From contig NZ_BLJA01000001.1 of assembly GCF_019972295.1 (NCBI RefSeq), positions 218,049 to 282,048 of the forward strand: 64,000 nucleotides of DNA, in the 5' to 3' direction. This DNA comes from Geobacter sp. AOG2 (lineage in GTDB: Bacteria; Desulfobacterota; Desulfuromonadia; Geobacterales; Pseudopelobacteraceae). Each line of letters starts with the position of its first letter. Position 1 is the first letter of the stretch. The position numbers and the translations under genes were made by a program. The notes beneath the pieces are model-generated. The model was not told where the DNA came from and searched no databases. It saw only the letters and a program-made list of their open reading frames with translations. Of the stretch, positions 28,871 through 47,958 are shown piece by piece.

Positions 28871-28872
28871 CT

Positions 28873-30764: not shown

Positions 30765-30786
30765 CCCCCGCTGCTTGCGGCGGGGG
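30765..30786 (+). terminator. strong GC hairpin after the outer-membrane protein gene
   Basis: CCCCCGCTG pairs with CGGCGGGGG-type sequence (arms 30765-30771 and 80-86) in an AT-rich setting, 69 bases after the stop codon. There is no T run, so it may be a factor-dependent terminator, an mRNA-stabilising stem, or a remnant of an IS200/IS605-type end. The gap 30697-31060 otherwise holds no gene; a 97-codon frame crossing the hairpin has no family features. Confidence 0.35.
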
Positions 30787-31060
30787 AGGAGGTTGTACAT
30801 GGTAAATCTGCACTCTGTCGCCTGCTGGTCTGAACACTTCAATGAACTAAGTAGATCGGTAAAGCTCTTGTATAGCCGTAGTTCCAGGAATGAAGCTATA
30901 AGCTTACGCCACTTTCGATGTTGTGGTACTCACAAAGGCAACCGTCAGCGTCGTAACTCAAAGAGCATAAAGTACATCAAAAAAACTCAATATAAAAAAT
31001 CAATATTAATAATTAATTGTAACTGAATGAATATCATAACTATCAAATTCGGGGGGCTTA

Positions 31061-31600: not shown

Positions 31601-31655
31601 GTACAGAGCAAACTGTTTTATTGTGTAATAATACATAATATTGATAGGGAAAAAT

Positions 31656-32288: not shown

Positions 32289-32461
32289 TAAAGTATATTA
32301 TATATAAATAATAAAACGATTTATAAATCAGGATAAATAACAAATTAAAGTAGTATTTAGCAAAATTTATCAAATAACAAAACAGAATTATTTATAAGTA
32401 ATGTTTAAATACTTATTTCTTGTTAATAAATTGTATTTATATCAGATGCGAGGAACTAAAA

Positions 32462-33637
32462 TTGGATGTATTAATTAATATAAAGACAAGAAACAAAATT
32501 ATGGCCTTTGCGATAATTAACTGTATCGGATTGTTACTAATTGCTACCTTGGGAGCTCTCAGTTTTTCACGTATGAACGTTATGCTGTTTGCTATTGTTG
32601 TCATACTGATAGTTATATCCATCATCACTGGCAATATGATTTCCAATTCAATGACTCGACCACTCAAAACAACCCGAGAAACACTTCAGGCCGCGGCAGG
32701 GGGAGATCTTACAGCCCGTTCTAACATCGTTGGAAAGGATGAAATTGGTATGTTGGCCTATGAGGCGAACAGTACCATTGAAAAAATGAATTGCATCATC
32801 TCTAAAGTTTCAATTAATAGCGACAGCGTGGCTTTTGAAGCCGCCAGGTTGCTTGACCTTGCCGATAAGATGACCGCCGAAGCCGTAGGGATTGCCACAC
32901 AATTTGATTCGCTAGCAACAACCAGCGAGGAAATGTCTACCACTAGTGGCGATATATCTCGGAATTGCCAGACCGCAGCATTTGAGGCGCTACAGGCTAG
33001 CCAAACTGCCGAAAATGGTGTGAATGTCGTTGAAAATACCGTTCGGGTCATGAACCGCATCGCTAACCGGGTGAAGAAAACCGCAAAAACAGTACAAAGC
33101 TTAGGGAGCTGTGGCGACCAAATAGGTGAAATTATAGGTACAATTGAAGATATTGCTGATCAGACCAACCTTTTGGCTCTGAACGCCGCCATTGAAGCTG
33201 CACGTGCAGGTGAACAGGGTCGTGGGTTCGCAGTTGTAGCCGACGAGGTCAGAGCTCTTGCGGAACGAACGACTACTGCAACCCACGAGATCAGCGATAT
33301 GATCAAGGCCATCCAGGGCGAGACAGCTGAGGTAGTGTTCGCCATGAATGAGGGGATTTCAGAGGTGGAGAGAGGAATGGATGAAGCTGCAAAATCTGGT
33401 GTAGCGCTTCGGGTTATCCAAGAACAGGTAAACTCAGTGAACACCCATATCAGCCAGATTGCCACGGCTGCTGAGGAACAGAGCGCCACCACGGCCGAAA
33501 TTAGCAGGAACATCCAGCATATTTGCGAGGCGATGCAGCATTCCGCTCAAAGTGGTAACGAGTCCGTAGTTGCTACCAATCAACTTTCAAATCTAGCAGA
33601 AGATCTGAAGATGTATATGGGGCAATTCAAAGTGTAG
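32462..33637 (+). CDS. methyl-accepting chemotaxis protein without periplasmic sensor domain
   Basis: About 391 residues. Two hydrophobic helices near the N-terminus ([21 protein letters not shown] and [21 protein letters not shown]) are separated by only a few residues, so there is no periplasmic ligand domain. A HAMP-like segment follows and then the signalling coiled coil with the conserved tip [34 protein letters not shown]. It would talk to CheA/CheW elsewhere in the genome. The TTG at 32462 is chosen for the GAGGAAC upstream; an ATG twelve or so codons downstream is possible. It closes the AT-rich catabolic segment. Confidence 0.85.
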
Positions 33638-33714
33638 CGATAAATAGCTGAATATGGCGGTGGTAGAACGTTTTCTAATGATTTAAGTGTTTTCTATTAC
33701 CCCTGTTCGTGAAT

Positions 33715-33731
33715 GCCGATATTAAATCGGC
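33715..33731 (+). promoter_or_regulatory. small inverted repeat before the cofactor genes
   Basis: GCCGAT-ATTAA-ATCGGC is a perfect 6-bp stem with a five-base loop, 24 bases before the mobB start, followed by a doubled GGCTTAAG. It may affect translation or bind a regulator. I do not see a Moco riboswitch fold here. Confidence 0.3.
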
Positions 33732-33754
33732 TTAAGACGGCTTAAGAGGAATCC

Positions 33755-34267
33755 ATGACCACCCGTTCCGTTTCATTCGTCGCAAAATCGGGCACCGGCA
33801 AGACGACCCTGCTGGAGAAGGTTATTACCGAACTCAAGGGCCGGGGCTACCGGCTGGGGGTCATCAAACACGACGCCCACCGCTTCGATATCGATCATCC
33901 GGGCAAGGACAGCCACCGCCTGACCCAGGCCGGCGCCGACACCATGCTGATCTCCTCGCCGGAAAAACTGGCCGTCATCAAGAAACACGACGCCTCCCCA
34001 CCCATCGAGGAGTTGATCGCCACCTATTTCGGCGACGTGGACCTGGTCCTGACCGAGGGGTTCAAGAAAAGCGGCCTCCCCAAGATCGAGGTCCATCGCC
34101 GGGAGCGAAGCGATACCCTGCTCTGCCGGGGCGAGGAACACGACCCGAGCCTTTTGGCGGTGGCCAGCGATGAACCTTTGAACCTGGACGTGCCGGTGCT
34201 GGACCTGAACAACCCTGCACAGGTGGCGGATTTCGTGGAGGAGCGGATCATCCGTGCAACTGACTGA
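33755..34267 (+). CDS. mobB: molybdopterin-guanine dinucleotide biosynthesis protein B
   Basis: A 170-residue P-loop GTP-binding protein. It shows VAKSGTGKTTLLEKVI (Walker A), GVIKHDAHRFDIDHPGKDSHRLTQAGAD, the LVLTEGFKKSGLPKIEVHR motif and a C-terminal DLNNPAQVADFVEE, all standard for MobB. MobB assists attachment of GMP to molybdopterin, giving the bis-MGD form used by the DMSO-reductase family, to which the transhydroxylase belongs. The gene is markedly GC-richer than those before it. Its last 14 bases overlap moaA. Confidence 0.93.
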   Translation: MTTRSVSFVAKSGTGKTTLLEKVITELKGRGYRLGVIKHDAHRFDIDHPGKDSHRLTQAGADTMLISSPEKLAVIKKHDASPPIEELIATYFGDVDLVLTEGFKKSGLPKIEVHRRERSDTLLCRGEEHDPSLLAVASDEPLNLDVPVLDLNNPAQVADFVEERIIRATD

Positions 34268-35234
34268 CTCCCTGGGGAGAACCATAAACTACCTGCGCCT
34301 GTCGGTGACCGACCGCTGCAACATGCGCTGCTCCTACTGCATGCCCGCAGAGGGTGTTGCCGACCAGGGGCACGACGCGGTCCTACGCTACGAGGAGTTG
34401 CTGTTGATCGCCGAGGCCGCCGTGGGCCTGGGGATCGAGAAGATCCGCATCACCGGCGGCGAGCCGCTGGTTCGGGCCGGCATCGTGGACTTCCTCTCCC
34501 GCCTCTCCAGGATCGACGGCCTCCGCCACCTGGCCCTCACCACCAACGGCCTCCTGCTGGAGCGAATGGCCGCCGACCTGCACGCGGCGGGGGTGCAACG
34601 CCTGAACGTCAGCCTCGACTCCCTTAACCGGGAGACCTTCGGCGCCATCACCCGGGGCGGCGATCTGGATGCGGTGCTGCGGGGACTGGATGCGGCCGAA
34701 CGAGCCGGTTTCCCGCCCCCCAAGATCAACATGGTCGTCATGGCCGGGGTCAACGACGGAGAGATCCTCGACTTTGCCGAACTGACCCGGAACCGCGGCA
34801 ATTCGGTGCGTTTCATCGAATACATGCCGGTGATCAAAGATGAGGGGTGGCAACGCTACTCCATTCCCGGCGAGGAGATCCTCCGGCGCATCGCGGCGCG
34901 CTACCCGCTGGAGCACGTATGCAAGGGCGCCTATGCCGGCCCGTCCCGGGACTTCCGAATCCCCGGCGCCCGCGGCACCATCGGCATCATCACCGCCGTG
35001 TCGGACCATTTCTGCGAGGAGTGCAACCGTATCCGGGTGACCTCCACCGGCCAGGCCAAGGGATGCCTGTTCTCTGACGACAAGACTGACCTGCTCCATT
35101 GTCTGCGTCCTTTGGATAGCCTGAAACTGAAAAATACCATTAGGGACATCGTCAAGGCTAAACCTGTGCGGCATAATATCTCCTTTATCGGGCACGGGTA
35201 CGAGAATTTTATGATGGCACAGATTGGAGGATAG
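34254..35234 (+). CDS. moaA: GTP 3',8-cyclase, radical SAM
   Basis: A 326-residue MoaA, first enzyme of molybdenum-cofactor synthesis, which turns GTP into 3',8-cyclo-GTP. The radical-SAM cluster motif is CNMRCSYC near residue 23; RITGGEPLVR and LTTNGLLL follow, and the second cluster is in CEECNRIRVTSTGQAKGC. The C-terminus ends in the conserved Gly-Gly needed for catalysis. Translation starts at GTG 34254 with GGAGGAG upstream inside mobB, indicating coupling. Confidence 0.95.
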   Translation: MQLTDSLGRTINYLRLSVTDRCNMRCSYCMPAEGVADQGHDAVLRYEELLLIAEAAVGLGIEKIRITGGEPLVRAGIVDFLSRLSRIDGLRHLALTTNGLLLERMAADLHAAGVQRLNVSLDSLNRETFGAITRGGDLDAVLRGLDAAERAGFPPPKINMVVMAGVNDGEILDFAELTRNRGNSVRFIEYMPVIKDEGWQRYSIPGEEILRRIAARYPLEHVCKGAYAGPSRDFRIPGARGTIGIITAVSDHFCEECNRIRVTSTGQAKGCLFSDDKTDLLHCLRPLDSLKLKNTIRDIVKAKPVRHNISFIGHGYENFMMAQIGG

Positions 35235-35235
35235 A

Positions 35236-35667
35236 ATGGCGGAGGTCGTCGCTATCTGCATCAGTGAAAAAAAGGGTGAGCGCAAAACGCCGGTGCCTGA
35301 GGTCCAAGTCCAGGAAAATCATGGAATCATGGGGGACGCCCATGCCGGCGACTGGCACCGCCAGATAAGCATGTTGGCCGAGGAGAGCATTGACAAGATG
35401 CGGGCGCTAGGACTGGATGTGAGCGCGGGTGATTTCGCTGAAAATATCACTACCAGGGGCATTGAGCTGGTTGTGCTCCCCGTGGGGAGCCGTCTCCAGG
35501 TGGGTGAAACCTTACTGGAGGTTACCCAGATTGGTAAGGATTGCCATACTCATTGCAACATTTACAACCAGGCTGGAGACTGCATTATGCCCAGGGAGGG
35601 TATCTTCGCCAAGGTCCTTATTGGCGGGACTATTCGCCCTGTTGATCAGGTGAGGTGTATTGATTAA
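35236..35667 (+). CDS. MOSC-domain protein
   Basis: A 143-residue stand-alone MOSC (molybdenum-cofactor sulfurase C-terminal) domain: AGDFAENITTRGIELVVLPVGSRLQVGETLLEVTQIGKDC carries the typical core and the conserved Cys of the family. MOSC domains bind Moco or transfer sulfur to it; small MOSC proteins often sit among moa/mog genes. The ATG at 35236 is used because GGAGG lies at 35226-35230, overlapping the end of moaA. Confidence 0.88.
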   Translation: MAEVVAICISEKKGERKTPVPEVQVQENHGIMGDAHAGDWHRQISMLAEESIDKMRALGLDVSAGDFAENITTRGIELVVLPVGSRLQVGETLLEVTQIGKDCHTHCNIYNQAGDCIMPREGIFAKVLIGGTIRPVDQVRCID

Positions 35668-35811
35668 TAACACAATCCATATTCAGATAATTTTGCTATG
35701 CAGCCTATTAAAGAGCATAACTTCAGGCCATATTTCCCGATATTTTATTACCAGACGGCAGCACCTGGCTATCTAACGGGGAATTTCGATTCAAGCCAAA
35801 GGGCATTGATC

Positions 35812-36249
35812 ATGGAATTTCATACTTACGTAGAATATAGCAAACCTACACAGGAAATGCTGAGGGATGTACAAGAAATTTGCGAGGTAAATAGCATCAG
35901 CGATAGCCGATATAGGTGCATCATCGGCAAACTGGATGAAATGATCGAACTTCTCAGTAACCAACCAGGACGTAATTTGACAACTGAGTTTGATTTTTTG
36001 TTGGGAAATATAGTGAACCATGTTTCTTCCGAGAATGTTTGCATGGATATGGTTGGCTTTCCCAGAACCATGGAACATTGTGCCCATCATCGATTCATCT
36101 TCAGCAGCACCGCTGAACTTCACCACCGCTCCATTGTTGGCCACGAAGTTTTGGTCGCTGATTTAGCTCATATTCGCTTGCTCTGGCTCGTACATATAAA
36201 AATGTATGACCGGACCTTCGAAGAATATATAAGTCAGCCAATAGTTTAA
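35812..36249 (+). CDS. hemerythrin-like protein, possibly degenerate
   Basis: About 145 residues, helical, with a pattern resembling bacteriohemerythrin: a mid-protein EFDFLLGNIVNHVSSENVCMDM, an EHCAHHRFIF motif and a final LLWLVHIKMYDRTFEEYI, which matches the last His/Asp iron ligands of that family. The first His ligand of a standard hemerythrin is not obvious, so it may bind a single iron or none. The ATG at 35812 follows AAAGGG and gives the usual family length; an ATG at 35698 has no ribosome site. It is an AT-rich insertion inside the cofactor cluster, and no cofactor role is implied. Confidence 0.55.
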   Translation: MEFHTYVEYSKPTQEMLRDVQEICEVNSISDSRYRCIIGKLDEMIELLSNQPGRNLTTEFDFLLGNIVNHVSSENVCMDMVGFPRTMEHCAHHRFIFSSTAELHHRSIVGHEVLVADLAHIRLLWLVHIKMYDRTFEEYISQPIV

Positions 36250-36454
36250 AGTTGAGATGGTTACTGTCAGTCTGAACTTACGGAAGTTAGCCTATTCTGA
36301 CAAAAATGAAAATTAAACGACAATTTGGTTGCAGAGTTTTCAAGTTAATTATATTGGGACAGCTTTGTAGCTTTGCGAGGCCTGAATATTGGTATCAGCG
36401 GGTTAGCATGGCCGATATGTGTATCAGATTACAAGCATGATCAGGAGAAATTGG

Positions 36455-37669
36455 ATGGTTTCATTCGATGAGGCAATAAACATCATTTTATCCTCTGTGT
36501 CTCCTGTTGGTACAGAGCGAGTACATTTATTGGACGCCACTGGACGTGTAATTGCTGAGGACATGATAGCACCACGGGACATGCCATTGTGGGATAACTC
36601 AGCGATGGACGGTTATGCGGTCAAATTCGCTGATTGCGACATTGTACCCCGAATGTTGCGGGTAAACGCATTTTTGCCTGCCGGCACCAATGCTGGTGGC
36701 GTGTGTGTGGAGCAAGGATGCGCCATCAGGATCATGACAGGCGCGCCGATCCCCGATGGGTGTGATGCGATAGTACCACTGGAGGAAACTGATAAAAACG
36801 ACCACGAGATCGCCCTGCGGGAGCCGGTTGTAAAGGGGCAGCATATCCGATTTAAGGGTGAGGATGTCCACGCAGGTATTGCTTTTATTCAAGCTGGCTC
36901 GATCATCCGACCTCCTGAAATAAATATGCTGGCTTCTTTTGGGATTGCCCTGGTGCCTGTCTATAGACGACCCTCCGTAGCAATTCTCTCTACGGGTGAC
37001 GAGTTAGTGGAGTTGGGCACCACTCCAGGGGTGGGCGAAATTGTTAATAGCAATACCCTATCCTTGGCCGCAGCGGTGCGGGAAACTGGTGCGGTACCGT
37101 TGGTCATTGGCATTGCAAGGGATGTGCGTGAAAGCCATTTGGAGAAACTTCTGGAAGGGCTGAAAGCCGATGTTTTGATTACTTCAGCTGGAGTGTCTGC
37201 TGGTGACCGAGATCTCGTTCGTGATGTCCTTGCAGAACTTGGATCGCGGCAGCTTTTTTGGAAAGTGGGCGTCAAACCCGGCGGACCGACGGCCTTTGCC
37301 TTACATGGCTCAACCCCAGTTTTTTCTCTGCCCGGCAACCCGGTCTCCACAATGATTACATTTGAGGAATTCGTGCGGCCGGCTTTACTCAAGATGCAGG
37401 GCTATCGTAGGGTGTTGCGTCCGCTCTTCAAGGCCATCTTGCGAGAAGAGTTGCACAAAAAACCAGGCAAGGTCCAGATCGCACGTATCCGTCTTGAACG
37501 GGAAGACGGCCGCTGGTACGCAACGTCGGCCGGGAATCAGCAAACCGCAATCCTTAGGACCATGGTGGATGCCGAAGCCCTTGCCGTTCTTTCACTCGAG
37601 AAGACATATTTTGCCATTGGTGATGAGATTGACGCACACTTTTATGGGAATCATATAGATCAAATGTGA
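36455..37669 (+). CDS. moeA: molybdopterin molybdenumtransferase
   Basis: A 404-residue MoeA. Signature segments: MPLWDNSAMDGYAV near the N-terminus, RIMTGAPIPDGCDAIVP, VAILSTGDELVE, GEIVNSNTLSL, TSAGVSAGDRD, KPGGPTAFALHGSTPVFSLPGNPVSTMITFEEFVRPAL. MoeA inserts molybdate into adenylylated molybdopterin made by MogA, whose domain lies in the fused gene downstream. AGGAG lies seven bases before the ATG at 36455; earlier in-frame starts lack one. The 205-base gap upstream holds no gene. Confidence 0.93.
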   Translation: MVSFDEAINIILSSVSPVGTERVHLLDATGRVIAEDMIAPRDMPLWDNSAMDGYAVKFADCDIVPRMLRVNAFLPAGTNAGGVCVEQGCAIRIMTGAPIPDGCDAIVPLEETDKNDHEIALREPVVKGQHIRFKGEDVHAGIAFIQAGSIIRPPEINMLASFGIALVPVYRRPSVAILSTGDELVELGTTPGVGEIVNSNTLSLAAAVRETGAVPLVIGIARDVRESHLEKLLEGLKADVLITSAGVSAGDRDLVRDVLAELGSRQLFWKVGVKPGGPTAFALHGSTPVFSLPGNPVSTMITFEEFVRPALLKMQGYRRVLRPLFKAILREELHKKPGKVQIARIRLEREDGRWYATSAGNQQTAILRTMVDAEALAVLSLEKTYFAIGDEIDAHFYGNHIDQM

Positions 37670-37752
37670 TTCAAATCCCATCTCACATTCTCACATAAGG
37701 AGCTATGGCAGCCTATGTGTAATCCTTATATTAAGGAAAATTTATAACTAAT

Positions 37753-38235
37753 ATGGAATTCAACCACTTCGATATTCGGGGTAATGCCGTCATGGTGGAT
37801 GTCAGCGCCAAGCAGGCGACTATGCGGACCGCCACGGCAGCGGCGGAGGTGCGCATGTCGGGGGAACTGCTGACCGCCATCCGGACCGGTGCCGTGATCA
37901 AGGGCGATGTGCTGGGGGTCGCGCGGCTGGCCGGTATCATGGCGACAAAAAAAACGCCGGAGTTGATCCCACTTTCCCACCCGCTGGCCCTCCATTCCGT
38001 GGCGGTGGATTTCGAACAGGACCAGGCCGGCGGAAGGATCGAGGTCATGTGTACCGTGCGCGCCTTCGAACGCACCGGGGTCGAGATGGAGGCTATGACT
38101 GGCGCGGCCGTGGCGGCCCTGACCATCTACGACATGTGCAAGGGGAGCGACAAATCCGTCACCGTCGACAACATCCGGCTCTTATACAAGGTAGGCGGCA
38201 AAAGTGGAGCATACCGCCGGGATGAGGAACGTTGA
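37753..38235 (+). CDS. moaC: cyclic pyranopterin monophosphate synthase
   Basis: A 160-residue MoaC that converts the MoaA product to cyclic pyranopterin monophosphate. Conserved blocks: MVDVSAKQATMRTATA, GDVLGVARLAGIMATKKTPELIPLSHPL, EVMCTVRAFERTGVEMEAMTGAAVAALTIYDMCKG. It is GC-rich, unlike the AT-rich gap before it. The stop codon overlaps the TTG start of the fused mogA-mobA gene. No moaD or moaE was found in the window, so molybdopterin synthase must come from elsewhere in the genome. Confidence 0.95.
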   Translation: MEFNHFDIRGNAVMVDVSAKQATMRTATAAAEVRMSGELLTAIRTGAVIKGDVLGVARLAGIMATKKTPELIPLSHPLALHSVAVDFEQDQAGGRIEVMCTVRAFERTGVEMEAMTGAAVAALTIYDMCKGSDKSVTVDNIRLLYKVGGKSGAYRRDEER

Positions 38236-39398
38236 GAGCGGCCATTCTGACCTTGAGCGACAAAGGGTCGCGGGGCGAGCGGGTTGACGAAAGCGCCCCG
38301 GCGCTGGCCTCCTGGCTGGCGGAGAAAGGGGTGAGCACGGTGGAGGCCCAGGTGATCTCCGACGATTTCGAGCAGATCGTGGCCGTGCTGGGCGCCTGGG
38401 CAGACGGGGGCAAGGTAGACCTGATTCTGACCACCGGCGGCACCGGGGTCTCGCCCCGGGACGTGACCCCCGAGGCGACCATGAAGGTCGTGGAGCGCCT
38501 GATCCCCGGCATCGGCGAGCTGATGCGCCTGAGGAGCCTGGAGAAGACCCCCATGGCGTCCCTTTCCAGGGCGGTTGCGGGGGTTCGCGGCCAGACGCTC
38601 ATCATCAACCTACCGGGCAGCCCCAAAGGGGCCCTAGAGAACCTGGAGGCATTCTGGTCGGTCATCGGCCATGCCGTGGAGAAGATCTGCGGCGACCAGA
38701 GCGATTGCGGAGGGCGTTTTTCATGCAAATTGCCCGGCATACGGGCAAATGAGCTAGGTGAAATAGTTGGTTGTGTGCAAGGTGGCACTGGGAAGTTATA
38801 TGATAGCATTACTGGAGTGATTTTGGCCGGTGGAGCCTCCAGTCGCATGGGGACAAATAAGGCTCTACTGAAGGTTTGTGGGTTATCCCTGATAGAAATT
38901 ATTTATCTAACCATGGCCCAGATTTTTAAGGACGTGATACTGGTTACTAATACTCCAGAAGTTTACTCATTTCTACCCTGCCATAAAGTTAATGATATTC
39001 ATAATGGTTTCGGCCCTCTTTCTGGATTGCATGCGAGCCTGACAGCTAGTTCTAATGCATGGTTATTCGTTACGGCTTGCGATGTACCTTTCATTAATCC
39101 AGATGTGATACGATTGCTCTGTTCTGATATGGGTGAATATGACGCTATAGTGCCGATTAGTTCAGATGGCAAAGAACCCATATATGCCCTTTATAATCGA
39201 CGTTGCCTTTTGGCTGTAGAACAGGCCATTAAACAGAACGACCGAAAACTGCTGAACTTATTGGACCGTATTCGGACTAGATTTGTTACTTTTGATAAAC
39301 TAGACTCAATATCTAATGTAGAGTTGTCATTTTATAACGTGAATACCCCAAGTGATTATACTTCTCTTGTATCAAAAATAATGTATAAACATGTTTAA
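38232..39398 (+). CDS. fusion of MogA/MoaB-type molybdopterin adenylyltransferase and MobA-type guanylyltransferase
   Basis: A 388-residue two-domain protein. Residues ~1-165 are MogA/MoaB-like (AILTLSDKGSRG, TTGGTGVSPRDVTPEAT, NLPGSPKGA), which adenylylates molybdopterin. Residues ~195-388 are MobA-like (GVILAGGASSRMGTNKALL, FGPLSGLHASL, VTACDVPFINPD), which adds GMP to form MGD. The first domain's DNA is GC-rich, the second strongly AT-rich, with the change near 38700-38760, as though a native-like mogA fused in frame to a mobA of different origin. The TTG start overlaps the moaC stop and has GAGGAAC upstream. Confidence 0.88.
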   Translation: MRAAILTLSDKGSRGERVDESAPALASWLAEKGVSTVEAQVISDDFEQIVAVLGAWADGGKVDLILTTGGTGVSPRDVTPEATMKVVERLIPGIGELMRLRSLEKTPMASLSRAVAGVRGQTLIINLPGSPKGALENLEAFWSVIGHAVEKICGDQSDCGGRFSCKLPGIRANELGEIVGCVQGGTGKLYDSITGVILAGGASSRMGTNKALLKVCGLSLIEIIYLTMAQIFKDVILVTNTPEVYSFLPCHKVNDIHNGFGPLSGLHASLTASSNAWLFVTACDVPFINPDVIRLLCSDMGEYDAIVPISSDGKEPIYALYNRRCLLAVEQAIKQNDRKLLNLLDRIRTRFVTFDKLDSISNVELSFYNVNTPSDYTSLVSKIMYKHV

Positions 39399-39443
39399 AA
39401 TTATAAATATATTAAAACAATATTTGTAAATAATGTTGTTAAA

Positions 39444-39546
39444 CATACTTATAGAAACAAATAAGTATAAATACAAAATAATATTAGAAAATATGATATT
39501 TGGCTATCAAAAATATTGTGAACGATTTTTCTATTATTATTTTGTA
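39444..39546. terminator. two hairpins between convergent cofactor and tns operons
   Basis: The first hairpin is ATACTTAT/ATAAGTAT (39444-39467, 8-base loop). The second has 20-base arms at 39471-39490 and 39526-39545 with a single mismatch and a 35-base loop. They lie in the AT-rich 235-base gap between the ends of mogA-mobA (rightward) and tniQ/tnsD (leftward), which suits termination from both sides, although the second could also be the trace of a small mobile sequence. Confidence 0.5.
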
Positions 39547-39633
39547 TATTTGCTATTTAAGAAGCAGGTCCTAAGTCAATCACTGTTAGTTTTGTTTGAA
39601 TGACAGGAGACGGGGCATGTTGACATTTTCTAA

Positions 39634-41220
39634 TCAAGCAAGAAAAGATCTATCATCAACATCCGCGCCTAGTTCCTGGATTGTAGCGAGAATAAAATCC
39701 CGGTGACGGTGCAACACTTTGAGCTCGAAATCCGCTACCCTTCGTAGCCTGTTCGCCGATATCGGTGTGCCTGTCCGTCTCATCTCCGTAATCGCCCAAC
39801 GCAGCCGCCTTTTATGGAAACTGTCTCTGTCTTCAAGGTTCTTGGTCAGGACCTTGGTGACCTCCGGGAAACGCGAGGAGTCCGCCCGAAATTTTTCGAA
39901 AATTCGGCATGAACGAAGAGCTGAAGTCGGAGTGATATAAACAGGTTTTTCGATCTTGTTATATTCCTGCGTAAAAAGTTCTTCGAGTTCGCAAGCCTTC
40001 GTCGAGTCCAAGGCGGCCCAACCCATACTGCGCCCGCGCGGGGCATCTACGGCCATCGCTCGGTGAAGCTGTAATTGGAAGAAGTCTTTATCATACCGAA
40101 TCAGAAAGTCGTAAGCCCCTGGTGCATATTTCTGAAAATCACTACGGGATAACCCGGGTGTTTCCTTTATCAATTTCGTCAGCGTCCCGCGATGCTTGCT
40201 GAGGAGGCCGGCTGCATTTACAACCTTTCTTGGGGCGATCTGCTTCGCGCCTGCTTTCTCTGATCCCTCGGCCTCAAAATGGCTGACCGAATCGAAATAA
40301 GCGCCAATGAGGAGCAGGTAAAGCAGCGTAGGCCGATGTCCGCGATCTCCATAAAAAAATTTTCGTATCCAGGGAGCCGGCTGGCCGCTCGTTAGCACAT
40401 TGACGTTCAGCAACCTCAGGGTATTGTCCCCAAAGAAATCCATTATTTTTACTGCAACAGCGCGATAATCGACTGTGCCATGCCGATTGCTTGCCTGCGA
40501 TGCGGACTTATGCCCGATCGCAGCCGATGAATTGCCGAACCTCGTGCCGGAAGAAGTAAGAAGGTAAGCGCTCTGTTCTGCCAACCATAAGAGCGAAGGA
40601 GATGGAGGGCTTTCCACCAAAGCGGCTGGGAGAGGCTCTATGCCTGACTCGCAATTGCATTCTCCCGCGAGAGTGAGAGTCTTGTTACGGAGCGGATACT
40701 CCCCGCACAGTTTACATCCATGGTAAAGAGGCTGTCTATGCTTCCAACAGATATAAACGCCAGGAAGTTGGTGTTCGCGACGAAAATACTGAAACCCCTC
40801 CGCTTTGATCCCTTCCTCGATACAAGAAGGGCAATAGCGGGGTGCAGTCGCGATGTTGGCAGGATATTTCGCTAGCCCCATGCCAAGACCTATTGGCTGG
40901 GTCACGTCAGTCGAAGCTATTTTCGTTTCGAGCTCCGTACGTATCGGCGCAGGCATAAAATACGAGAGGTAGGGGAACAGGCTGTAATGTCTGACGACAT
41001 TGAGTGAATCACTATAAGGATGGTTCTTGTGAACTTTCGCTGCCATGGTAGGGAGGTACGCAGGCAGTGCCGCTATGAGGCGCGACTTCAGTTTCTGCCC
41101 CGTCAGTTCCCGAACTATCGCATCGGCGGGAAAGCCTGACGTCGCCTTGCAGCGCGTAAAGAGGGAGAAAATGGTTTCTCCTTCCGCAGGTAGTGGAAAG
41201 GATGGGAAATGACGAGTCAT
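39634..41220 (-). CDS. tnsD: TniQ/TnsD-family target-selection protein
   Basis: About 528 residues. The N-terminal TniQ region has a zinc-finger array: CPSC (about 130-133), then H, C, H in REHQLPGVYICWKH and CKLCGEYP further on. The length and long C-terminal part (HRDFILATIQELG at the end) resemble TnsD of Tn7, a sequence-specific DNA-binding protein that picks the attachment site, rather than the short TniQ of CRISPR-associated elements. It is the last gene of the tns operon. The ATG at 41220 lies seven bases past the tnsC stop; an earlier ATG at 41235 is possible. Its target here is presumably the ssb region. Confidence 0.85.
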   Translation of the reverse strand: MTRHFPSFPLPAEGETIFSLFTRCKATSGFPADAIVRELTGQKLKSRLIAALPAYLPTMAAKVHKNHPYSDSLNVVRHYSLFPYLSYFMPAPIRTELETKIASTDVTQPIGLGMGLAKYPANIATAPRYCPSCIEEGIKAEGFQYFRREHQLPGVYICWKHRQPLYHGCKLCGEYPLRNKTLTLAGECNCESGIEPLPAALVESPPSPSLLWLAEQSAYLLTSSGTRFGNSSAAIGHKSASQASNRHGTVDYRAVAVKIMDFFGDNTLRLLNVNVLTSGQPAPWIRKFFYGDRGHRPTLLYLLLIGAYFDSVSHFEAEGSEKAGAKQIAPRKVVNAAGLLSKHRGTLTKLIKETPGLSRSDFQKYAPGAYDFLIRYDKDFFQLQLHRAMAVDAPRGRSMGWAALDSTKACELEELFTQEYNKIEKPVYITPTSALRSCRIFEKFRADSSRFPEVTKVLTKNLEDRDSFHKRRLRWAITEMRRTGTPISANRLRRVADFELKVLHRHRDFILATIQELGADVDDRSFLA

Positions 41221-41227
41221 TGTGGGC

Positions 41228-42604
41228 CTATCCATTGAGAATATTGTCAAATTTTTGATGGTGCTGCTGTTCGCCTATCAGTTCCTTCCGCAACTGGGCA
41301 ACTCTTTCCGGGTTCGCCTTTTTTCTTCGAGCGCCAGAAAATTTTGGTTCGACGGCGGAGGTTTCCACAAAGGCCTCTTTTTCGAATTTGCTCACCTCGC
41401 CCATTCTGCAATCAGCAAAATTCGTGACCTCGTTTGCCGCACTGAAATAGAGATCGTCAAATTTGGCAATCATCACTGGGTCTTTCGAGCGTAAGGCGTC
41501 CAGCGCCGCGTGGAGTGGTTTCATTTGCTCCAGATAGACGTTTTCCACCAACCGCCCGTCTACACGCTCTTGTCCTCCAATAGCTGCCATTTGACAGTTA
41601 ATGAAAAGAGTGAGGAGGATTCCCGTGACGCCTTGGGTCAGGTCGTACAGGAGTTCGCATATTTCATCGGAAAATCCTACCGGATCCTTGACCCATTGGT
41701 AACGCCACATCGTTTTACAAAACTTGTACCAGTCATCCTCTTGCGCGGATTTTGGGGGGTCGAGTTCTTCAAACCCTCCGTCGCAAAACCGCCTTTGCAC
41801 ACTAATATTCTTATTGGCGAATAAAATCTTCTTCGCAGCCGTTGTACCAACCAATATGATCGGGACACCCAGCTCATCGCGGAAATTACTGACCATGGCC
41901 AGAAATTCATCCTTGTTGGCGCCCCTTCTCAGATTCACATTTTGTAGTTCGTCTATGACTATAGCCCCGAGACGCAGATGCTTCACCGACTTCTTTAGCC
42001 CGAGGATGAAGTCGGTGTGCGTCCTGTTTTTTGAAAATATCGGGGTGACAATCTCTCTCTGGAGGAGATTGTCCATTTCGCTGCCAAGGGTCATGCACAT
42101 GTTTTTCGCTGTCGAATTCACCGGCACATTTTGCATGACGTACAAAATCTGGGTGTACGGACACGGCTTGCCGTTATATTCACTGTGATTGATAACCTGT
42201 GGTCCCATGGTCCTCATAATCGCTCGGATCAACGCGGATTTTCCCGCACCAGAAAGACCCGTTAAGAATGTGACTGTCGATGGCGATGCTGACTGTTGGT
42301 ACAGTGACTGCTGGCCTTGTGCGGTCAACGGATTTCTATCCTTGTATCCGCCGACGATGAGGCTGTGAATGTTGGTGAAAATTTCAACATGTTTATCCAT
42401 GGGGAACATGAAGTTCTTCAGCCTGGCGGTGCACAGTCTCCGCATTGAACTGTTAAGGTTCAACTCATGCTCGTTAAAATCCGGCCGACGCTTTAATAAC
42501 TTTATCTTGTCGACTACATCAGCCGGAAGGGGTTTGAGAACCTCTACAAGTGGATTGCCAGCAAATTCAGGCAAAGGGTGTGGGGTATAAATCAGTTCGC
42601 TCAT
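41228..42604 (-). CDS. tnsC: TnsC-like AAA+ transposition regulator
   Basis: A 458-residue AAA+ ATPase: Walker A GLSGAGKS at 116-123, Walker B IVIDELQN at 215-222 and a sensor-like ILVGTTAAK afterwards. In Tn7 the TnsC ATPase bridges the target-selection protein and the TnsAB transposase and enforces target immunity. Its ATG overlaps the tnsB stop (ATGA). The C-terminal tail is long and charged, which in Tn7 serves to contact TnsA and TnsB. Confidence 0.9.
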   Translation of the reverse strand: MSELIYTPHPLPEFAGNPLVEVLKPLPADVVDKIKLLKRRPDFNEHELNLNSSMRRLCTARLKNFMFPMDKHVEIFTNIHSLIVGGYKDRNPLTAQGQQSLYQQSASPSTVTFLTGLSGAGKSALIRAIMRTMGPQVINHSEYNGKPCPYTQILYVMQNVPVNSTAKNMCMTLGSEMDNLLQREIVTPIFSKNRTHTDFILGLKKSVKHLRLGAIVIDELQNVNLRRGANKDEFLAMVSNFRDELGVPIILVGTTAAKKILFANKNISVQRRFCDGGFEELDPPKSAQEDDWYKFCKTMWRYQWVKDPVGFSDEICELLYDLTQGVTGILLTLFINCQMAAIGGQERVDGRLVENVYLEQMKPLHAALDALRSKDPVMIAKFDDLYFSAANEVTNFADCRMGEVSKFEKEAFVETSAVEPKFSGARRKKANPERVAQLRKELIGEQQHHQKFDNILNG

Positions 42605-44748
42605 TCGTCCTCCCAAAGGTCCGCAGTTATCGCTGCGACAGATTTTGTGGCTGGCCGGGGTTTAGCATCAATCACTATTGGTTTCAGTGGCTCTGGAGTT
42701 GAGCCAGGTAATAGCTGGTGGGTGGCGTCTGATCGAACCGCGTTTTTCTCTTCAGCCTTATGTTGCCTGATCGCACGACGGCTTTTGCTAGGTTTCGATA
42801 TGGCGGCTTGTGCCTTCTTCTCCTTCTTTGCTATGCGGATGATGCCGTTGGCATCATCCCTGTTCCTTGCCACCTCATGAGCGTTCTGCATCCTCGCTGC
42901 CTCTTCCAATGTCTCGTATTTTTTCCTGAAGAGGTCCCACTCATAGAAAGCCAAGGCTCTCCTCATGATGTTTTGGTTCATGTTGAATGCCTGTTCCCAT
43001 GCTCCTGAGGAACGGTTGAAAAAATAGACGCTTTGCGCGTTGTGCTCGTTGTAGCGTACTTGGACCTTGTTTTCTTTCATCGATAAGATCTCAAGCATTG
43101 AGCATATGGGTCTGAAAACATGGGATCTGAATCTTATGCCTTCATGGTCAATCGATGCCGTGCCAGGGGAGAGCAGATAGTATTTGTAATCGTCTTCCGA
43201 CATGGTCCGCGTAAGCCCAGGTTTGCACTTAAGGCCCCAAGTGTACAATCCTATTCGGGATATATCCTCAACACCGCTTTCAAAGAGCTCCGGTGGGATC
43301 CGCGTGGATGATACCGGCTGCCTGTTGATGGCAATAATTGCCTGGACCAGAATCCGCTCAGCTTCGTCGATCGTCAGGACTGCATTGTCTTTGCCATCCT
43401 TTTCCCCGCGTTGCCTGTCCTTCGGGTAAGAACCGGGGAGCCTGTAATGTGCTTTCTTTATCTCTGAGAATTTGCTTTCCACGGTCCCCTTCATCTCAGG
43501 GCACCACGAAGAAGCAATTTCTACCTTCATCCCCACCTTCGGGACGCCTATGCTGCTGTCGGTCAGTAGTTCGGCGCGGTCAGCCATTAAGATGCTGGGA
43601 AGATGATGACATGGCCAGTCTTCCTTTGAATAGTCGAGCGCCAATCTTTCGAAAACTTGCCATTTGCCGCTGAAAGTGTTTGCCAATGCCGAGGCAGCCA
43701 CCCTCCAGCTCGCATTTTCGAGAGAGAAATAGTATCCGACTATTGCACTTGACCATACATCGACCACTATATAAAGCGTGGCATTACCCACCACTTCCGT
43801 CCTCGACCACCTCGACACCAACTGTACCTGTAGTTTTGTTGCATCAATTTCAAAACGATGACCTGGCCCAAGAACACCGTCGGTTGCCCGGCCACGTATT
43901 TCTTCGGGCTCATCCGGTTGACGCATTCTCCCCGGAATTGCGGCCCGTTTTTTGTTTTCCTTCTCCATAGTCTGAATGACGTAGAGATACTGCCATCTTG
44001 TCGGCAGCTGTTCCTTTGGAAGGAGTATGGCGTTCAACTCTTTTGATTTAAGATCGGCGCCTTCACGGTGAAAGTGCTCCTTCAAGGTTTCTACGAAAGC
44101 TTCACGAAAAGTGTTCTTTCCGGGCAGATAATGCTTTTCAACTCCATCCCTTAGTTCTTTTCTGACCACGGGCAGAGGAATGTCTCTTCCCTCCAATGCC
44201 ATGCTAGCCGCGCGCCTGCCGCGCTTGGCGGTACCTGCCCTCTGCTCCTGCCCTGGACCTCCTCGCCTATTCAGTTGGGGAATAAGGCTAAGCTCTGTCT
44301 GCCCAAGCGCATAGAACGTGTACAACAATCTCCTGATCTTCCGCTCCGACACCTTATTCCCCTCGCTCGCCTTTCTCAAAAGCCTGGCCATTGCTTCAGT
44401 GCTGAAAAGGATGGAATCGTCTAGGTCTAGTGAGCAGATAATGGCTTTGTTTTTCTCGAATTCCCGGTTCTCCGCCTCGGATAGGCCGCTCGCGATCAAT
44501 CTTGGTGGACTGTATTGTGCAGGAGTAACCTGACCTTGCTCTATCTGAAGAAGAAATTCGGCAAGAGGAACCTTCACAGGGCCACAAAGCGGTTTAGGCT
44601 TTGCTTTCTTGGAGTCGCCGGACTCAACGGGAATTTTGATTAAGGCAACGAAACCTTCGTCGTCAACAGCGAGAAATCTGCCGAGCCCTACAAAAGGTCG
44701 TCCAATCCATTTTGGCGAGATAAAAAATATCGCATTCTTGTCGAGCAT
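42601..44748 (-). CDS. tnsB: TnsB-like DDE transposase
   Basis: A 715-residue transposase of the Mu/TnsB group. The catalytic triad can be placed at Asp302 (FEIDATKLQ), Asp390 (LMADRAELL) and Glu424 (KGTVESKF), with spacing of 88 and 34 as in Tn7 TnsB (Asp273, Asp361, Glu396). The N-terminal ~250 residues contain the expected helix-rich DNA-binding domains that would recognise the end repeats. AAAGGAAGAGAT precedes the ATG. A 12-base gap follows tnsA. It cuts the 3' ends of the element and joins them to target DNA. Confidence 0.93.
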   Translation of the reverse strand: MLDKNAIFFISPKWIGRPFVGLGRFLAVDDEGFVALIKIPVESGDSKKAKPKPLCGPVKVPLAEFLLQIEQGQVTPAQYSPPRLIASGLSEAENREFEKNKAIICSLDLDDSILFSTEAMARLLRKASEGNKVSERKIRRLLYTFYALGQTELSLIPQLNRRGGPGQEQRAGTAKRGRRAASMALEGRDIPLPVVRKELRDGVEKHYLPGKNTFREAFVETLKEHFHREGADLKSKELNAILLPKEQLPTRWQYLYVIQTMEKENKKRAAIPGRMRQPDEPEEIRGRATDGVLGPGHRFEIDATKLQVQLVSRWSRTEVVGNATLYIVVDVWSSAIVGYYFSLENASWRVAASALANTFSGKWQVFERLALDYSKEDWPCHHLPSILMADRAELLTDSSIGVPKVGMKVEIASSWCPEMKGTVESKFSEIKKAHYRLPGSYPKDRQRGEKDGKDNAVLTIDEAERILVQAIIAINRQPVSSTRIPPELFESGVEDISRIGLYTWGLKCKPGLTRTMSEDDYKYYLLSPGTASIDHEGIRFRSHVFRPICSMLEILSMKENKVQVRYNEHNAQSVYFFNRSSGAWEQAFNMNQNIMRRALAFYEWDLFRKKYETLEEAARMQNAHEVARNRDDANGIIRIAKKEKKAQAAISKPSKSRRAIRQHKAEEKNAVRSDATHQLLPGSTPEPLKPIVIDAKPRPATKSVAAITADLWEDE

Positions 44749-44760
44749 ATCTCTTCCTTT

Positions 44761-45570
44761 TCAACTCCAGACGAGAGCAACCGGTAAAAAATGATTAATT
44801 GGGATGTCAAGGTTCACTGGGAGCCGGCGCAGCCACACGGCTCGTCCAAATAGACAGAAAGTGACGTCAGCGGACAGCCCTCCCAAAGCTTCCGCGGTTT
44901 CGGCAAGGATACAGTTCAAGTTTTTGTTCGGTTCCCACTTTTCCAAGAAGACGGCAACAAAGTTGTGGAAGTGTGCCATTACCGGGTCGAGTTCCCTTGA
45001 GACCATAGCGGTTCGGAGTGCCGCCAGATTCTTTGCTCGCGCTTGGCAGATGTCCAGTTCCGTCGACAACACCCACGGGATGCGGCGCCGTTTCCAATAT
45101 TCTTGCTCGATACGCAATTTTTCCAATGTCCGTTCCTGAGCGCTGGCCGCTCCTCTCACGTCAGCAGCGCGTTTGACCGAAATCACCGCCAAATTACTGT
45201 CCAGTAAGGTCAGCACAAGATCAGAAGTCATTACGATCGGGGTATTCGTGCAAGGATAGACGGGATGTTGTATTCCGAGTTCCCTGGCGATCTCCTGGGT
45301 CTCTTCCCACGGTAGCAGCGCATATTGCTCCCGGATGTCCACAACCTCTTGTGAAAATTCCGCCAAAACATGGTGCTGGTATTCAACATCGGACAGGTAA
45401 TGGTGAATCCGGCCCGTTTTGAGACCTTCCACTATTGCTGACCGTCCTTTTGAAGGAACGTCCCGTACGTGGAAAAAGGGACGATAGTTTAAACCTTCTC
45501 CTTGCCCATACCCCCGGGCTATCCATTTTTGCACGAGTTTCATCGTCGGTTTCCGGCTTCTGCTTCCCAT
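44761..45570 (-). CDS. tnsA: TnsA-like endonuclease
   Basis: A 269-residue restriction-fold nuclease. The catalytic residues can be aligned to Tn7 TnsA: Glu63 (LSDVEYQH), Asp117 (TSDLVLTL) and Lys133 (AVISVKRA), with Glu155 following. TnsA cuts the 5' ends, so with TnsB the element should move by cut-and-paste rather than by forming cointegrates. It is the first gene of the operon. Its promoter (TATAAT at 45608-45603) lies 33 bases before the ATG, close to the divergent WYL regulator gene. Confidence 0.9.
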   Translation of the reverse strand: MGSRSRKPTMKLVQKWIARGYGQGEGLNYRPFFHVRDVPSKGRSAIVEGLKTGRIHHYLSDVEYQHHVLAEFSQEVVDIREQYALLPWEETQEIARELGIQHPVYPCTNTPIVMTSDLVLTLLDSNLAVISVKRAADVRGAASAQERTLEKLRIEQEYWKRRRIPWVLSTELDICQARAKNLAALRTAMVSRELDPVMAHFHNFVAVFLEKWEPNKNLNCILAETAEALGGLSADVTFCLFGRAVWLRRLPVNLDIPINHFLPVALVWS

Positions 45571-45602
45571 CGCCCACTCCCTATTGCGATCTTAATAATT
45601 TA

Positions 45603-45699
45603 ATTATATCATCAAAAAGATTCTAATACAAGATAAAAATGATTGACACTGTTTGTGCTTCGCTGTATAGTTGAAATTAGGCGACGTGGTTTTTATCTT
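45603..45699. promoter_or_regulatory. divergent tnsA / WYL-regulator promoters with 10-bp inverted repeat
   Basis: The rightward promoter is TTGACA (45643-45648), 17-bp spacer, TATAGT (45666-45671). The leftward promoter is TTGTAT (45631-45626), 17-bp spacer, TATAAT (45608-45603). AAGATAAAAA (45630-45639) and its exact complement TTTTTATCTT (45690-45699) flank the rightward promoter 60 bp apart; the left arm overlaps the leftward -35 by two bases. This suits a dimeric repressor shared by both transcripts. Confidence 0.7.
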
Positions 45700-45714
45700 A
45701 AAAGGGGATAACTA

Positions 45715-46590
45715 ATGGAAATACAAGAGCTTGTGCAATCGCAACGCGACCGGCTGGCTTTCATTGAGCTGCGCATCCGTTTTTTCGGGGAGATTCAGCG
45801 GCAAGATCTTATTTCGCGATTCGGCATTCAGGTCGCTGCCGCGACCCGCGACCTTTCGTTATACCGACATCTTGCTCCTGGAAACCTGGAGTATGATGCA
45901 AAGGTGAGGGTCTATAAGCAGGGAAGGGAATTCCAGCCCATTTTTAAGTTTTCCGCGGATAGAGTTCTTGCCTGGCTTTCGCGGGGCTACGGAGATGGCT
46001 ACCCCGAGCGGGAACGACCTTTGGTCAGGTCTGCGTCATTCGGGCCGGTAAATTCCATATCGCTCTTCACTCTTTCCGTTTTGACCCAGGCAATCTACAA
46101 GAAGAAGGCAGTCGAGATGTCCTACAGATCGATGACCAGCGGTCTCTCGACAAGGGAGTTCGTCCCGTTTGCTCTTGCCGACAATGGATTCCGCTGGCAT
46201 GTAAGGGGGTTCGATAGAAATAATAAGGGGTTTATCGACCTGATTCTCACCAGGATAGTGGAAGCGCATATTATAAATGGAGAAATAGATGAACTTGAAA
46301 CTTCAGATCAGGACATTCAATGGAATCGGATTGTGGAACTCGAATTGGTCCCCCATCCCGAGAACGTGAAATATGCGGCTACCGTTGAAGCCGACTATGG
46401 TCTAACGGACGGAGTGCTGAATCTCAAGGTCCGGGCCGCGCTGGTAGGCTACCTACTCAGGAGATGGTCCGTTGACTGTTCTCCAGATCACAGCAGCAGA
46501 GGCCACGAGTTCCACCTTTGGCTGCGCAACTCCCCAGCTCTCTATGGCGTCGATAACTTGCACCTTGCTCCCGGCTACGTAGGGGGCTAA
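45715..46590 (+). CDS. WYL-domain transcriptional regulator (BrxR/CapW-like)
   Basis: A 291-residue regulator with an N-terminal winged helix (residues ~1-75, including RQDLISRFGIQVAAATRDLSLY), a WYL ligand-sensing domain (~120-190, KKKAVEMSYRSM... and FRWHVRGFD in place of the WYL triplet) and a C-terminal WCX-type region. This layout is that of BrxR/CapW proteins, repressors that control BREX and CBASS defence genes and are thought to sense nucleic-acid signals. A good sigma-70 promoter and an AGGGG ribosome site precede it. It is divergent from tnsA and 31 bases ahead of a phosphoesterase gene. Confidence 0.85.
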   Translation: MEIQELVQSQRDRLAFIELRIRFFGEIQRQDLISRFGIQVAAATRDLSLYRHLAPGNLEYDAKVRVYKQGREFQPIFKFSADRVLAWLSRGYGDGYPERERPLVRSASFGPVNSISLFTLSVLTQAIYKKKAVEMSYRSMTSGLSTREFVPFALADNGFRWHVRGFDRNNKGFIDLILTRIVEAHIINGEIDELETSDQDIQWNRIVELELVPHPENVKYAATVEADYGLTDGVLNLKVRAALVGYLLRRWSVDCSPDHSSRGHEFHLWLRNSPALYGVDNLHLAPGYVGG

Positions 46591-46621
46591 GAGACTGGAT
46601 GGACAACGTGAAAGGCAAAAA

Positions 46622-47422
46622 ATGAAAATAGCGTGGCTAACAGACATGCACCTCAATTTTGTAGGACGCGATGAGTTTAGTCATCTATGCGCTTCTCTCC
46701 GTACGTCTAGCGCCAACGCTACGCTCATTACCGGCGACATTGCCACATCGTACAACCTCACTCGCTACCTCGATGAACTCGCAGATAACATGAAAATGCC
46801 GATCTTCTTTGTGCTTGGTAACCATGACTATTACGGCAGTTCGGTGCGTGAGGTGAATGAAACTGTAAGGAAAATGGCGTCTGAAAACCTGTATTTGACC
46901 TGGCTATCGGTGTGTCATGGTCCTATTGAACTTTCACCTGATACGTGCCTGATAGGCCACGAGGGTTTGGCCGACGGGCGGTTGGGTAATCCTGAGGGGT
47001 CAACAGTAATTTTGAATGATTACTACCATATTCAAGAGTTGGTACAGCCGACAAAGGAAGCCCGGTTGCAGGTCCAACACCACTTGGGCGATGAGGCCGC
47101 CGCACACCTCCTGCATCAATTGGAGATGGCAACCACAGCTGGATACTCTCATATTCTCGTGGCCTTGCACGTGCCCCCGTTTCCGGAGGCCTGCTGGCAT
47201 ATGGGGCACAACACAGACGACTACTACCTCCCACACTTCGGCTGCAAAGCCACGGGTGATGTTCTGCGAAAGTTCGCCGAGGAGAAGCCGATGTCACAAA
47301 TAGATGTCTACTGTGGGCATGTGCACAGCCAGGGAGAGGCAGAGATCCTGGCAAATCTGCGAGTTCACACGGCGGGAGCGGAGTATCGGGAACCAAAAAT
47401 TTCTAAAATTATCGAAGTTTGA
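46622..47422 (+). CDS. calcineurin-like metallophosphoesterase
   Basis: A 266-residue metallophosphoesterase: AWLTDMHLN (metal Asp/His), ITGDIAT, VLGNHDYYGS, a late VALHVPPF and YCGHVHSQGE supply the usual dinuclear-metal ligands in order. The family includes nucleotide phosphodiesterases and nucleases, and the substrate cannot be read from the sequence. It follows the WYL regulator in the same direction, so the two probably share a transcript; the pair sits at the right edge of the transposon and could be a small defence or signal-degrading unit. Confidence 0.85.
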   Translation: MKIAWLTDMHLNFVGRDEFSHLCASLRTSSANATLITGDIATSYNLTRYLDELADNMKMPIFFVLGNHDYYGSSVREVNETVRKMASENLYLTWLSVCHGPIELSPDTCLIGHEGLADGRLGNPEGSTVILNDYYHIQELVQPTKEARLQVQHHLGDEAAAHLLHQLEMATTAGYSHILVALHVPPFPEACWHMGHNTDDYYLPHFGCKATGDVLRKFAEEKPMSQIDVYCGHVHSQGEAEILANLRVHTAGAEYREPKISKIIEV

Positions 47423-47890
47423 GGGATGATCGATATGTTCGATTCCACCAGAAAGTTGTCGAGCGCTTGGCAAATGACATGAATATGACTATTTACATAA
47501 AGGTTGCTGGCTCGGACAGATTATCCCATGAAGAAAATAATCTCGACATATCGAATCCATCAAACTCTGGAAACATTCTCCTATCTATGGTGCGGCAAAG
47601 CCGGTCATGCCAATATGGACGGCGCCATAAGGATTATGAGCCGTGGAATATCAGCGATATTGGCAAATTCGAGGTGGCATCGCAATGACATCCTGAGTGA
47701 GCTCGCACGCGGGTCCAGCTAGAGATTTACTTGGCCCCGGGGTAGTCCGATCGATCACCGCTTACCCAATCCATTATTTTCAGGTATGGTTATGTTAAAT
47801 ATTGCTTTGCGACTTATAAGATTTGATGTAGCATTCAAAATCAAATTTCACGTTAAGTGTGGCACATGTAACATGTTGAAATAATAGGAT
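47423..47890. other. region between the phosphoesterase gene and the right transposon end
   Basis: Two overlapping small reading frames (47419-47688, 89 codons, and 47504-47722, 72 codons) have no ribosome site or family features, and neither is convincing; they may be remnants of a third gene. From 47760 the sequence is AT-rich and leads into the right-end repeats. Confidence 0.4.
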
Positions 47891-47958
47891 TTGACAATAA
47901 CATTTGCAACTTTGACAATAACTTTTACCATTTTGACACTAACTTTTACTAATTCACA
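47891..47958. repeat. right transposon end with three presumed TnsB sites at 21-bp spacing
   Basis: Three copies of TTGACAATAACTTTTACC or variants begin at 47891, 47912 and 47933, exactly 21 bp apart (two helical turns). They are inverted relative to the left-end copies. The innermost is the most divergent (ACATTTGC), and the outermost has TTGACACTAAC, mirrored in the outermost left copy. Dense sites at the end next to tnsA are the Tn7 right-end pattern. The terminus reads ...AATTCACA at 47958. Confidence 0.9.

Follow-up and report, generated by a model that had tools for sequence, protein, structure and literature searches.

A Divergent WYL Regulator beside the tns Genes

The window analysed here, a 64,000-bp stretch of contig NZ_BLJA01000001.1 from Geobacter sp. 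AOG2, carries a Tn7-like transposon whose transposition genes, tnsABC-tniQ, lie divergent from a gene encoding a WYL-domain regulator of the BrxR family. The two are separated by a 144-bp intergenic stretch, in which a predicted operator of the regulator falls inside the putative tnsA promoter. With this arrangement, the element probably restrains its own jumping with a borrowed defence regulator. The region contains the following features:

39634..41250, minus strand: tniQ/tnsD, 538 aa (Pfam TniQ 1.3e-10, TnsD 2.6e-11)
41228..42616, minus strand: tnsC, 462 aa (Pfam AAA_22, TniB)
42601..44748, minus strand: tnsB, 715 aa (assigned by position and by matching open reading frames, ORFs, beside tnsA in relatives)
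44761..45570, minus strand: tnsA, 269 aa (Pfam Tn7_TnsA-like_N 8.7e-15)
45603..45631, minus strand: putative tnsA promoter (-35 TTGTAT 45631-45626, 17 bp, -10 TATAAT 45608-45603)
45607..45625: predicted WYL operator (R-box), TATCATCAAAAAGATTCTA, ATCATC-AAAAA-GATTCT, from a motif learned without the window
45643..45671, plus strand: WYL promoter, TTGACA-17-TATAGT, strong (found by both promoter scans)
45715..46590, plus strand: BrxR-family WYL regulator, 291 aa (Pfam WYL 2.4e-8; phmmer to 7QFZ)
46622..47422, plus strand: metallophosphoesterase, 266 aa (Pfam Metallophos 2.2e-11), 31 bp past the WYL gene

The tnsB product has no match in Pfam or NCBIfam; its counterpart in a relative, locus L053, is a 77% identical ORF adjoining tnsA. 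The WYL gene and the metallophosphoesterase gene behind it probably share one transcript.

The initial annotation had called the regulator BrxR/CapW-type, and its place in the BrxR family is borne out by a full-length match to BrxR of E. fergusonii (PDB 7QFZ; phmmer E 3.4e-79, residues 3-288), the matches to CapW (best 1.3e-34) and to Acinetobacter BrxR (1.1e-21) being weaker. The WYL domain occupies residues 120-185 and, judged from sequence, a winged helix-turn-helix, WYL and C-terminal layout extends along the full protein. When the alignment is read for the six pocket residues named for 7QFZ, S139, S142 and R180 are retained, one serine is replaced by threonine (141), and K173/H174 are read as N169/N170.

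pEFER BrxR (7QFZ), of which the window protein is a full-length homologue, is described as a DNA-binding dimer and repressor with a two-arm operator and a 5-bp spacer (PMC9122601). Its operator core, AACCTACTG-AAAAA-CAGTAGGTT, governs brxR and the BREX genes, whereas the window box, of ATCATC type, sits in a transposase promoter. BrxR of Acinetobacter NEB394 (7T8K/7T8L) recognizes 10-bp half-sites placed 5 bp apart over a promoter, and its operator sequence is different again (PMC9122589). The half-sites of the two characterised BrxR operators measure 10-11 bp and share the 5-bp spacing (PMC9122601, PMC9122589). A single half-site suffices for binding and repression in E. fergusonii, and nearby inverted repeats are reported for just 193 of 347 BrxR homologues (PMC9122601).

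A Predicted Operator in the tnsA Promoter

Leaders were collected from 35 WYL homologues (42-63% identical), of which 29 were used for the motif, with the window excluded. L019 (mis-framed) and the near-duplicates L012, L077, L081, L084, and L097 were dropped before motif learning; L020, L095, and L100 (incomplete) and L085 and L114 (duplicates of L011 and L016) stand outside all leader sets, and pEFER brxR together with L006, L007, and L008 (~31% identical) served only as negatives. The 29 leaders yield a de novo 19-bp palindromic motif, cATcATCAtaaTGATgATg, with the core ATCATC-N5-GATGAT and a log-likelihood of 134 (1500 seeds), compared with 29-43 in eight shuffled runs (500 seeds each). 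Fifteen of these leaders reach 15 bits. Among the negatives, the leader of pEFER brxR, a gene with a different recognition helix and a different published operator, scores -0.8 bits, and the three distant WYL genes score 2.9-8.1 bits.

Applied to the window, the motif singles out the R-box at 45607-45625 with 15.4 bits, a score reached in 2 of 2000 shuffles. Nothing else in the whole 64 kb scores as high, the runner-up (13.8 bits, at 53989) lying inside an ORF. The same site keeps the first rank when training is restricted to 26 homologues (same-class L032, L101, and L102 removed) and also with the 16 homologues of at most ~53% identity (ten closer ones also removed). Ten of the 12 core positions agree with the motif, including an intact left half, ATCATC, and the two halves are separated by a 5-bp A spacer.

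The R-box lies between the -10 and the -35, that is, in the spacer, of the putative tnsA promoter, which is the best-scoring minus-strand promoter of the 300-bp leader. A similar placement recurs among the 18 homologues with strong boxes (at least 15 bits; near-duplicates are included in this number): in nine, against ~2.6 expected, the box is spanned by the best promoter directed away from WYL, the box centre being invariably at +13 counted from the -35 start (+15 for tnsA in the window). The best promoter toward WYL spans the box in none of the 18. By this pattern, tnsA appears to occupy the seat of the usual divergent target.

Other genes found in that seat vary. In L082, L089, L092, and L093 it is an ORF of 57-73 aa, beginning MATNPPKGD or similar, opposite BrxR-type genes; an ORF of this kind also stands directly before tnsA in L059, and the L082 copy has no Pfam match. 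In Cereibacter (L083) the divergent gene is cas3, and the box is weak (8.6 bits).

Proposed Control of Transposition and Alternatives

The location of the box in the spacer of a divergent promoter, in nine of the 18 homologues and in the window, is the main argument from which we infer that WYL represses the tns genes. We consider it probable that a BrxR-family WYL protein, acquired by the Tn7-like element, binds the R-box in the tnsA promoter spacer and represses tnsABC-tniQ. The proposal builds on the gene order, the protein family, the element borders, and the conserved box in its place. A Tn7-like element that shows no recognised parts of a clustered regularly interspaced short palindromic repeats (CRISPR) system would have adopted a WYL repressor of the BrxR family, and the WYL dimer, seated on ATCATC-AAAAA-GATTCT, would block transcription of tnsABC-tniQ. 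The box may also tune WYL itself and the metallophosphoesterase behind it, the direction of such autoregulation being conjectural. The tns genes would be turned on when the WYL protein is missing, as in a new cell, or when it is released by a ligand in the WYL domain; zygotic induction would account for the layout as well as a phage-linked trigger would.

Several observations weigh against this proposal. The tnsA -35, TTGTAT, is weak (three of six matches), and a stricter promoter scan omits TTGTAT-17-TATAAT and proposes GTGTCA-18-TAGAAT (45649-45620) as the minus-strand promoter instead; both candidates overlap the predicted operator. The best divergent promoter misses the box in the other nine strong-box homologues. 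ATCATC was first noticed in a visual inspection that included the window, which the later test excluded. The right half-site is degenerate, GATTCT agreeing with GATGAT at four of six positions (GAT, then the T at the end); one intact half-site may suffice here, because E. fergusonii BrxR binds and represses via a single one. Nine of the 29 training leaders score below 10 bits, six of which (L009, L016, L083, L088, L090, and L092) share the AAATRD helix; since these score low, whereas leaders with another helix (L077, L078, and L081) reach 11.3-11.7 bits, helix and box are not a strict pair. Nor is WYL constantly paired with the tns genes: L053 has no WYL match and carries another divergent gene, and among the tnsA loci examined, some of which reach less than 1-4 kb past tnsA, a WYL match at E 1e-3 occurs only in the window. 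At L016, the other locus with tns genes divergent from WYL, the operator is not replicated, because the best box in the 918-bp gap has 6.5 bits. Finally, 17 bp separate the end of the R-box from the WYL -35 downstream of it, and this spacing varies among homologues, which leaves autoregulation uncertain. The dual control of WYL and of transposition put forward in the initial annotation is probably right, at least for tnsA, for a reason other than the operator proposed there, namely a predicted family-type operator in the tnsA promoter.

The alternative that survives best, although we regard it as unlikely, is that WYL controls only itself and the metallophosphoesterase, as a two-gene cargo module, so that it adjoins tnsA by chance and the box leaves transposition unaffected. 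The inconstant partnership with these tns genes is in keeping with such a module, as are the 48% of BrxR homologues located with known defence systems (PMC9122601), the defence genes beside other WYL genes, and L078, in which WYL follows tnsE and heads restriction genes. The place of the window's best box within the tnsA -10/-35, together with the nine of 18 strong boxes in the best divergent promoter, argues the other way.

Less probable still is an activator role for WYL, with the box centre in an activator-like position, ~62 bp before the expected WYL start, and repression of tnsA as a side effect or absent. The box does lie upstream of TTGAC wherever TTGAC lies downstream (10 of 35 homologues and the window), and the WYL protein SiwR can activate (PMC10693628), but the distance from box to TTGAC is inconstant (27 bp in the window as against 23, 32-33, and 49 bp among homologues), and E. 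fergusonii BrxR is a repressor (PMC9122601).

A third possibility concerns a 10-bp repeat in the same intergenic stretch:

45630..45639, plus strand: left repeat arm, AAGATAAAAA, A-rich, directly upstream of the WYL -35
45690..45699, minus strand: right repeat arm, exact reverse complement, beside AAAAGGGG, a likely ribosome-binding site

The initial annotation had described a perfect 10-bp inverted repeat around the WYL promoter with its left arm over the tnsA -35. The repeat is present, with 50 bp between the arms, and if TTGTAT-17-TATAAT is taken as the tnsA promoter, 2 bp of its -35 (45630-45631) are shared with the left arm. Dinucleotide shuffling of the 144-bp intergenic stretch produces a perfect repeat of 10 bp or more in 19 of 1000 trials, and 14 of 887 equal-sized stretches of the window contain one; the repeat exceeds chance only marginally. 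A third copy of AAGATAAAAA occurs at 24409, within a MarR-like coding sequence, and the 10-mer is absent from all 35 homologue leaders (300 bp each, both strands). That WYL binds the two arms, looping over its own promoter, is highly improbable even though they bracket that promoter and touch the tnsA -35: the repeat is rejected as operator for its weak shuffle statistics and its absence from homologue leaders, its 50-bp separation departs from the 5-bp BrxR spacing, and the arms resemble pieces of the A-rich region upstream of a promoter and of a ribosome-binding region.

Relatives of the tns Genes and of the Regulator

Repression of tnsABC-tniQ through the R-box can be set beside the arrangement in related elements. 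Matches to TnsA occur in 6 of 395 genomes of the phylum sample and in 22 of 277 of the class sample (own genome counted in both). The nearest relative found, L053, shares 75% identity in TnsA, 77% in TnsB, 80% in TnsC, and 70% in TniQ. At the WYL position it has a co-directed ORF of 156 aa and then a divergent 342-aa protein (L053:10697-11725), of which L027 (TnsA 49%) encodes a 43% identical homologue (L027:10748-11719). Neither Pfam nor NCBIfam matches the unknown-family proteins of L053, L027, and L055; the L053 protein also lacks a PDB match, and the L056 protein lacks a Pfam match. The palindrome GCAC-N4-GTGC is present twice in the intergenic stretch of L027 (within 267 bp) and twice in that of L053 (within 193 bp), the background being five occurrences in 533,701 bp (other loci of at least 10 kb). 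L054 (TnsA 53%) and L070 (45%, a partial match) carry divergent helix-turn-helix proteins of the Cro/CI type. All four relatives with TnsA identity of at least 44% thus have a divergent gene at this place, with a recognised DNA-binding domain in two of the four. Some remoter relatives have glmS beside tnsA (checked by Pfam in L030, by eye in the others), and some a co-directed gene.

These loci lead us to a more tentative idea, which we would not yet favour: that CRISPR-free Tn7-like transposons use the divergent tnsA promoter as a common socket for exchangeable repressors, filled by BrxR/WYL, by Cro/CI proteins or by an unknown family with a palindrome. With BrxR in the socket, one type of sensor would govern both mobility and defence against phages, and a defence island might be mobilised by a phage-linked signal or simply by the repressor being absent on entry. 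Such swapping of regulators on the tnsA promoter would be a larger lead than the single WYL case. At L054:11130-12573 a CI-type regulator, 838 bp off, is followed by a metallophosphoesterase, where the window has WYL and a metallophosphoesterase.

Seen from the side of the regulator, the loci of 12 close WYL relatives in genome contigs contain no match to the window TnsA, and L016 alone among them has TnsB and TnsC matches. There, an ORF of 277 aa at the tnsA position (presumed to be tnsA by position) is divergent from WYL, and genes of the BrxA, BrxB, and BrxC-like kinds follow. This ORF has no Pfam match, PF08722 in the L016 genome matched another contig only, and neither repeats nor tRNA were found at the locus. 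PF08722 matched in 5 of 13 genomes with WYL relatives. The loci examined contain no further pair of WYL and tnsA joined by a strong box. The window metallophosphoesterase has no match in the 12 WYL loci and two relatives in plasmids. The search of viral contigs returned no relatives of the WYL protein or of this TnsA, and that of phage records gave three distant WYL matches. Restriction, recBC, CRISPR, and SAVED-domain genes adjoin the WYL genes of other loci. On the Vibrio gigantis plasmid (L078:535-4870), WYL comes after genes annotated TnsD and TnsE and ahead of the restriction genes, placing a BrxR in a Tn7-like setting.

Comparison with Known Systems

Tn7 combines TnsABC with TnsD/TniQ, has repeat-bearing ends, and inserts at glmS. 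The window element differs in that 2.4 kb, holding WYL and the phosphoesterase, separate the tnsA start from the right end, and in its insertion upstream of ssb.

Regulators encoded within the element are known from CRISPR-associated transposons (CASTs). In V-K CASTs, CvkR, Arc_1, or Arc_2 is encoded in reverse orientation beside cas12k, and CvkR represses cas12k and tnsB (PMC9938897). As in the window, the regulator lies opposite a key gene and its kind varies between elements; unlike the window, these are MerR or ribbon-helix-helix proteins, the neighbour is cas12k, tnsA is lacking, and the regulators belong to no defence-regulator family (PMC9938897). In I-F3 CASTs the Xre regulators RtaC and RtbC control transposition, with zygotic induction on entry; they resemble the window regulator in being co-opted, but belong to the Xre family and to CRISPR-guided elements (PMC11406308). 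A transposition regulator in a Tn7-like element is therefore known in kind; the novelty here lies in the BrxR family filling that role, within an element that is CRISPR-free by the ORFs scanned. The literature searched yielded no report on transposition control in a CRISPR-free Tn7-like element like this one, and the library searched none joining "Tn7-like" with "BrxR"; papers mentioning WYL, Tn7, and tnsA include, by their titles, none on this subject, and "WYL" is absent from the main text of a survey of Tn7-like cargo (PMC8649781). If the proposed repression is correct, a defence regulator has been reused to time the movement of a defence island, and a BrxR operator in a transposase promoter would make a simple reporter for the BrxR signal and for transposition control.

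Borders, Insertion Site, and Cargo of the Element

The extent of the element is defined by its ends:

9422..47958: Tn7-like element, 38,537 bp, left terminus TGACGATTAG (from 9422), right terminus CTAATTCACA (to 47958)
9428..9655, minus strand: left-end repeats, four units (at 9428, 9454, 9609, and 9635), presumed TnsB sites
47890..47952, plus strand: right-end repeats, three units with a 21-bp period, presumed TnsB sites

The end repeats measure ~21 bp, and the left and right sets are oppositely oriented. WYL and the metallophosphoesterase are situated between tnsA and the right end, and hence within the element. The bases just outside the termini, CCAAA and CAAAA, agree at four of five positions, where a 5-bp target duplication is expected. 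The ssb region is present in all six genomes of the genus sample (own genome counted), and the joined flanks of the element give a single BLAST match spanning the junction in each of five other genomes of the genus (the printed junction alignment is readable for four). The element is therefore placed 16 bp upstream of ssb, counted from its end to the likely start codon (ATG 47975). The insertion (window 47890-48397) separates ssb from its native upstream region. Because the right-end repeats contain TTGACA and the terminator scan found no terminator between the metallophosphoesterase and ssb, transcription of ssb may start from the element.

No cas genes occur among the ORFs scanned in the element (not every ORF was included, and no search was aimed at CRISPR arrays), the sole Cas-like signal being the helicase SngC, which cross-matches Cas3 models. 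The tRNA scan of the window found no tRNA, and the Rfam search returned nothing at gathering threshold. The remaining cargo consists of:

10065..16010, plus strand: SngA, SngB, and SngC (PADLOC 8.3e-98, 5.5e-178, and 8.8e-283)
16579..19978, plus strand: SIR2 and HerA (PADLOC 2.5e-106 and 3.1e-156; Pfam)
20255..23940, plus strand: metallophosphoesterase and SMC-like ATPase, an SbcCD-like pair (Pfam)
25889..39398, plus strand: molybdopterin oxidoreductase of the pyrogallol hydroxytransferase type and molybdenum-cofactor genes (Pfam)

SngA, SngB, and SngC are the proteins of the Shango defence system. Shango and SIR2-HerA reside in the same element as WYL, the nearest of them ~26 kb from it; the cargo, termed defence cargo in the initial annotation, answers to that description in these genes and departs from it in being partly metabolic. 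In the SbcCD-like pair, PADLOC assigns nothing to the first gene and finds the SMC-like ATPase to be mad3/LmuB-like (best 3e-21). The pair adjoins SIR2-HerA and is perhaps an unnamed defence pair. The Tn7-like element combines a molybdenum enzyme and its cofactor genes with defence genes.
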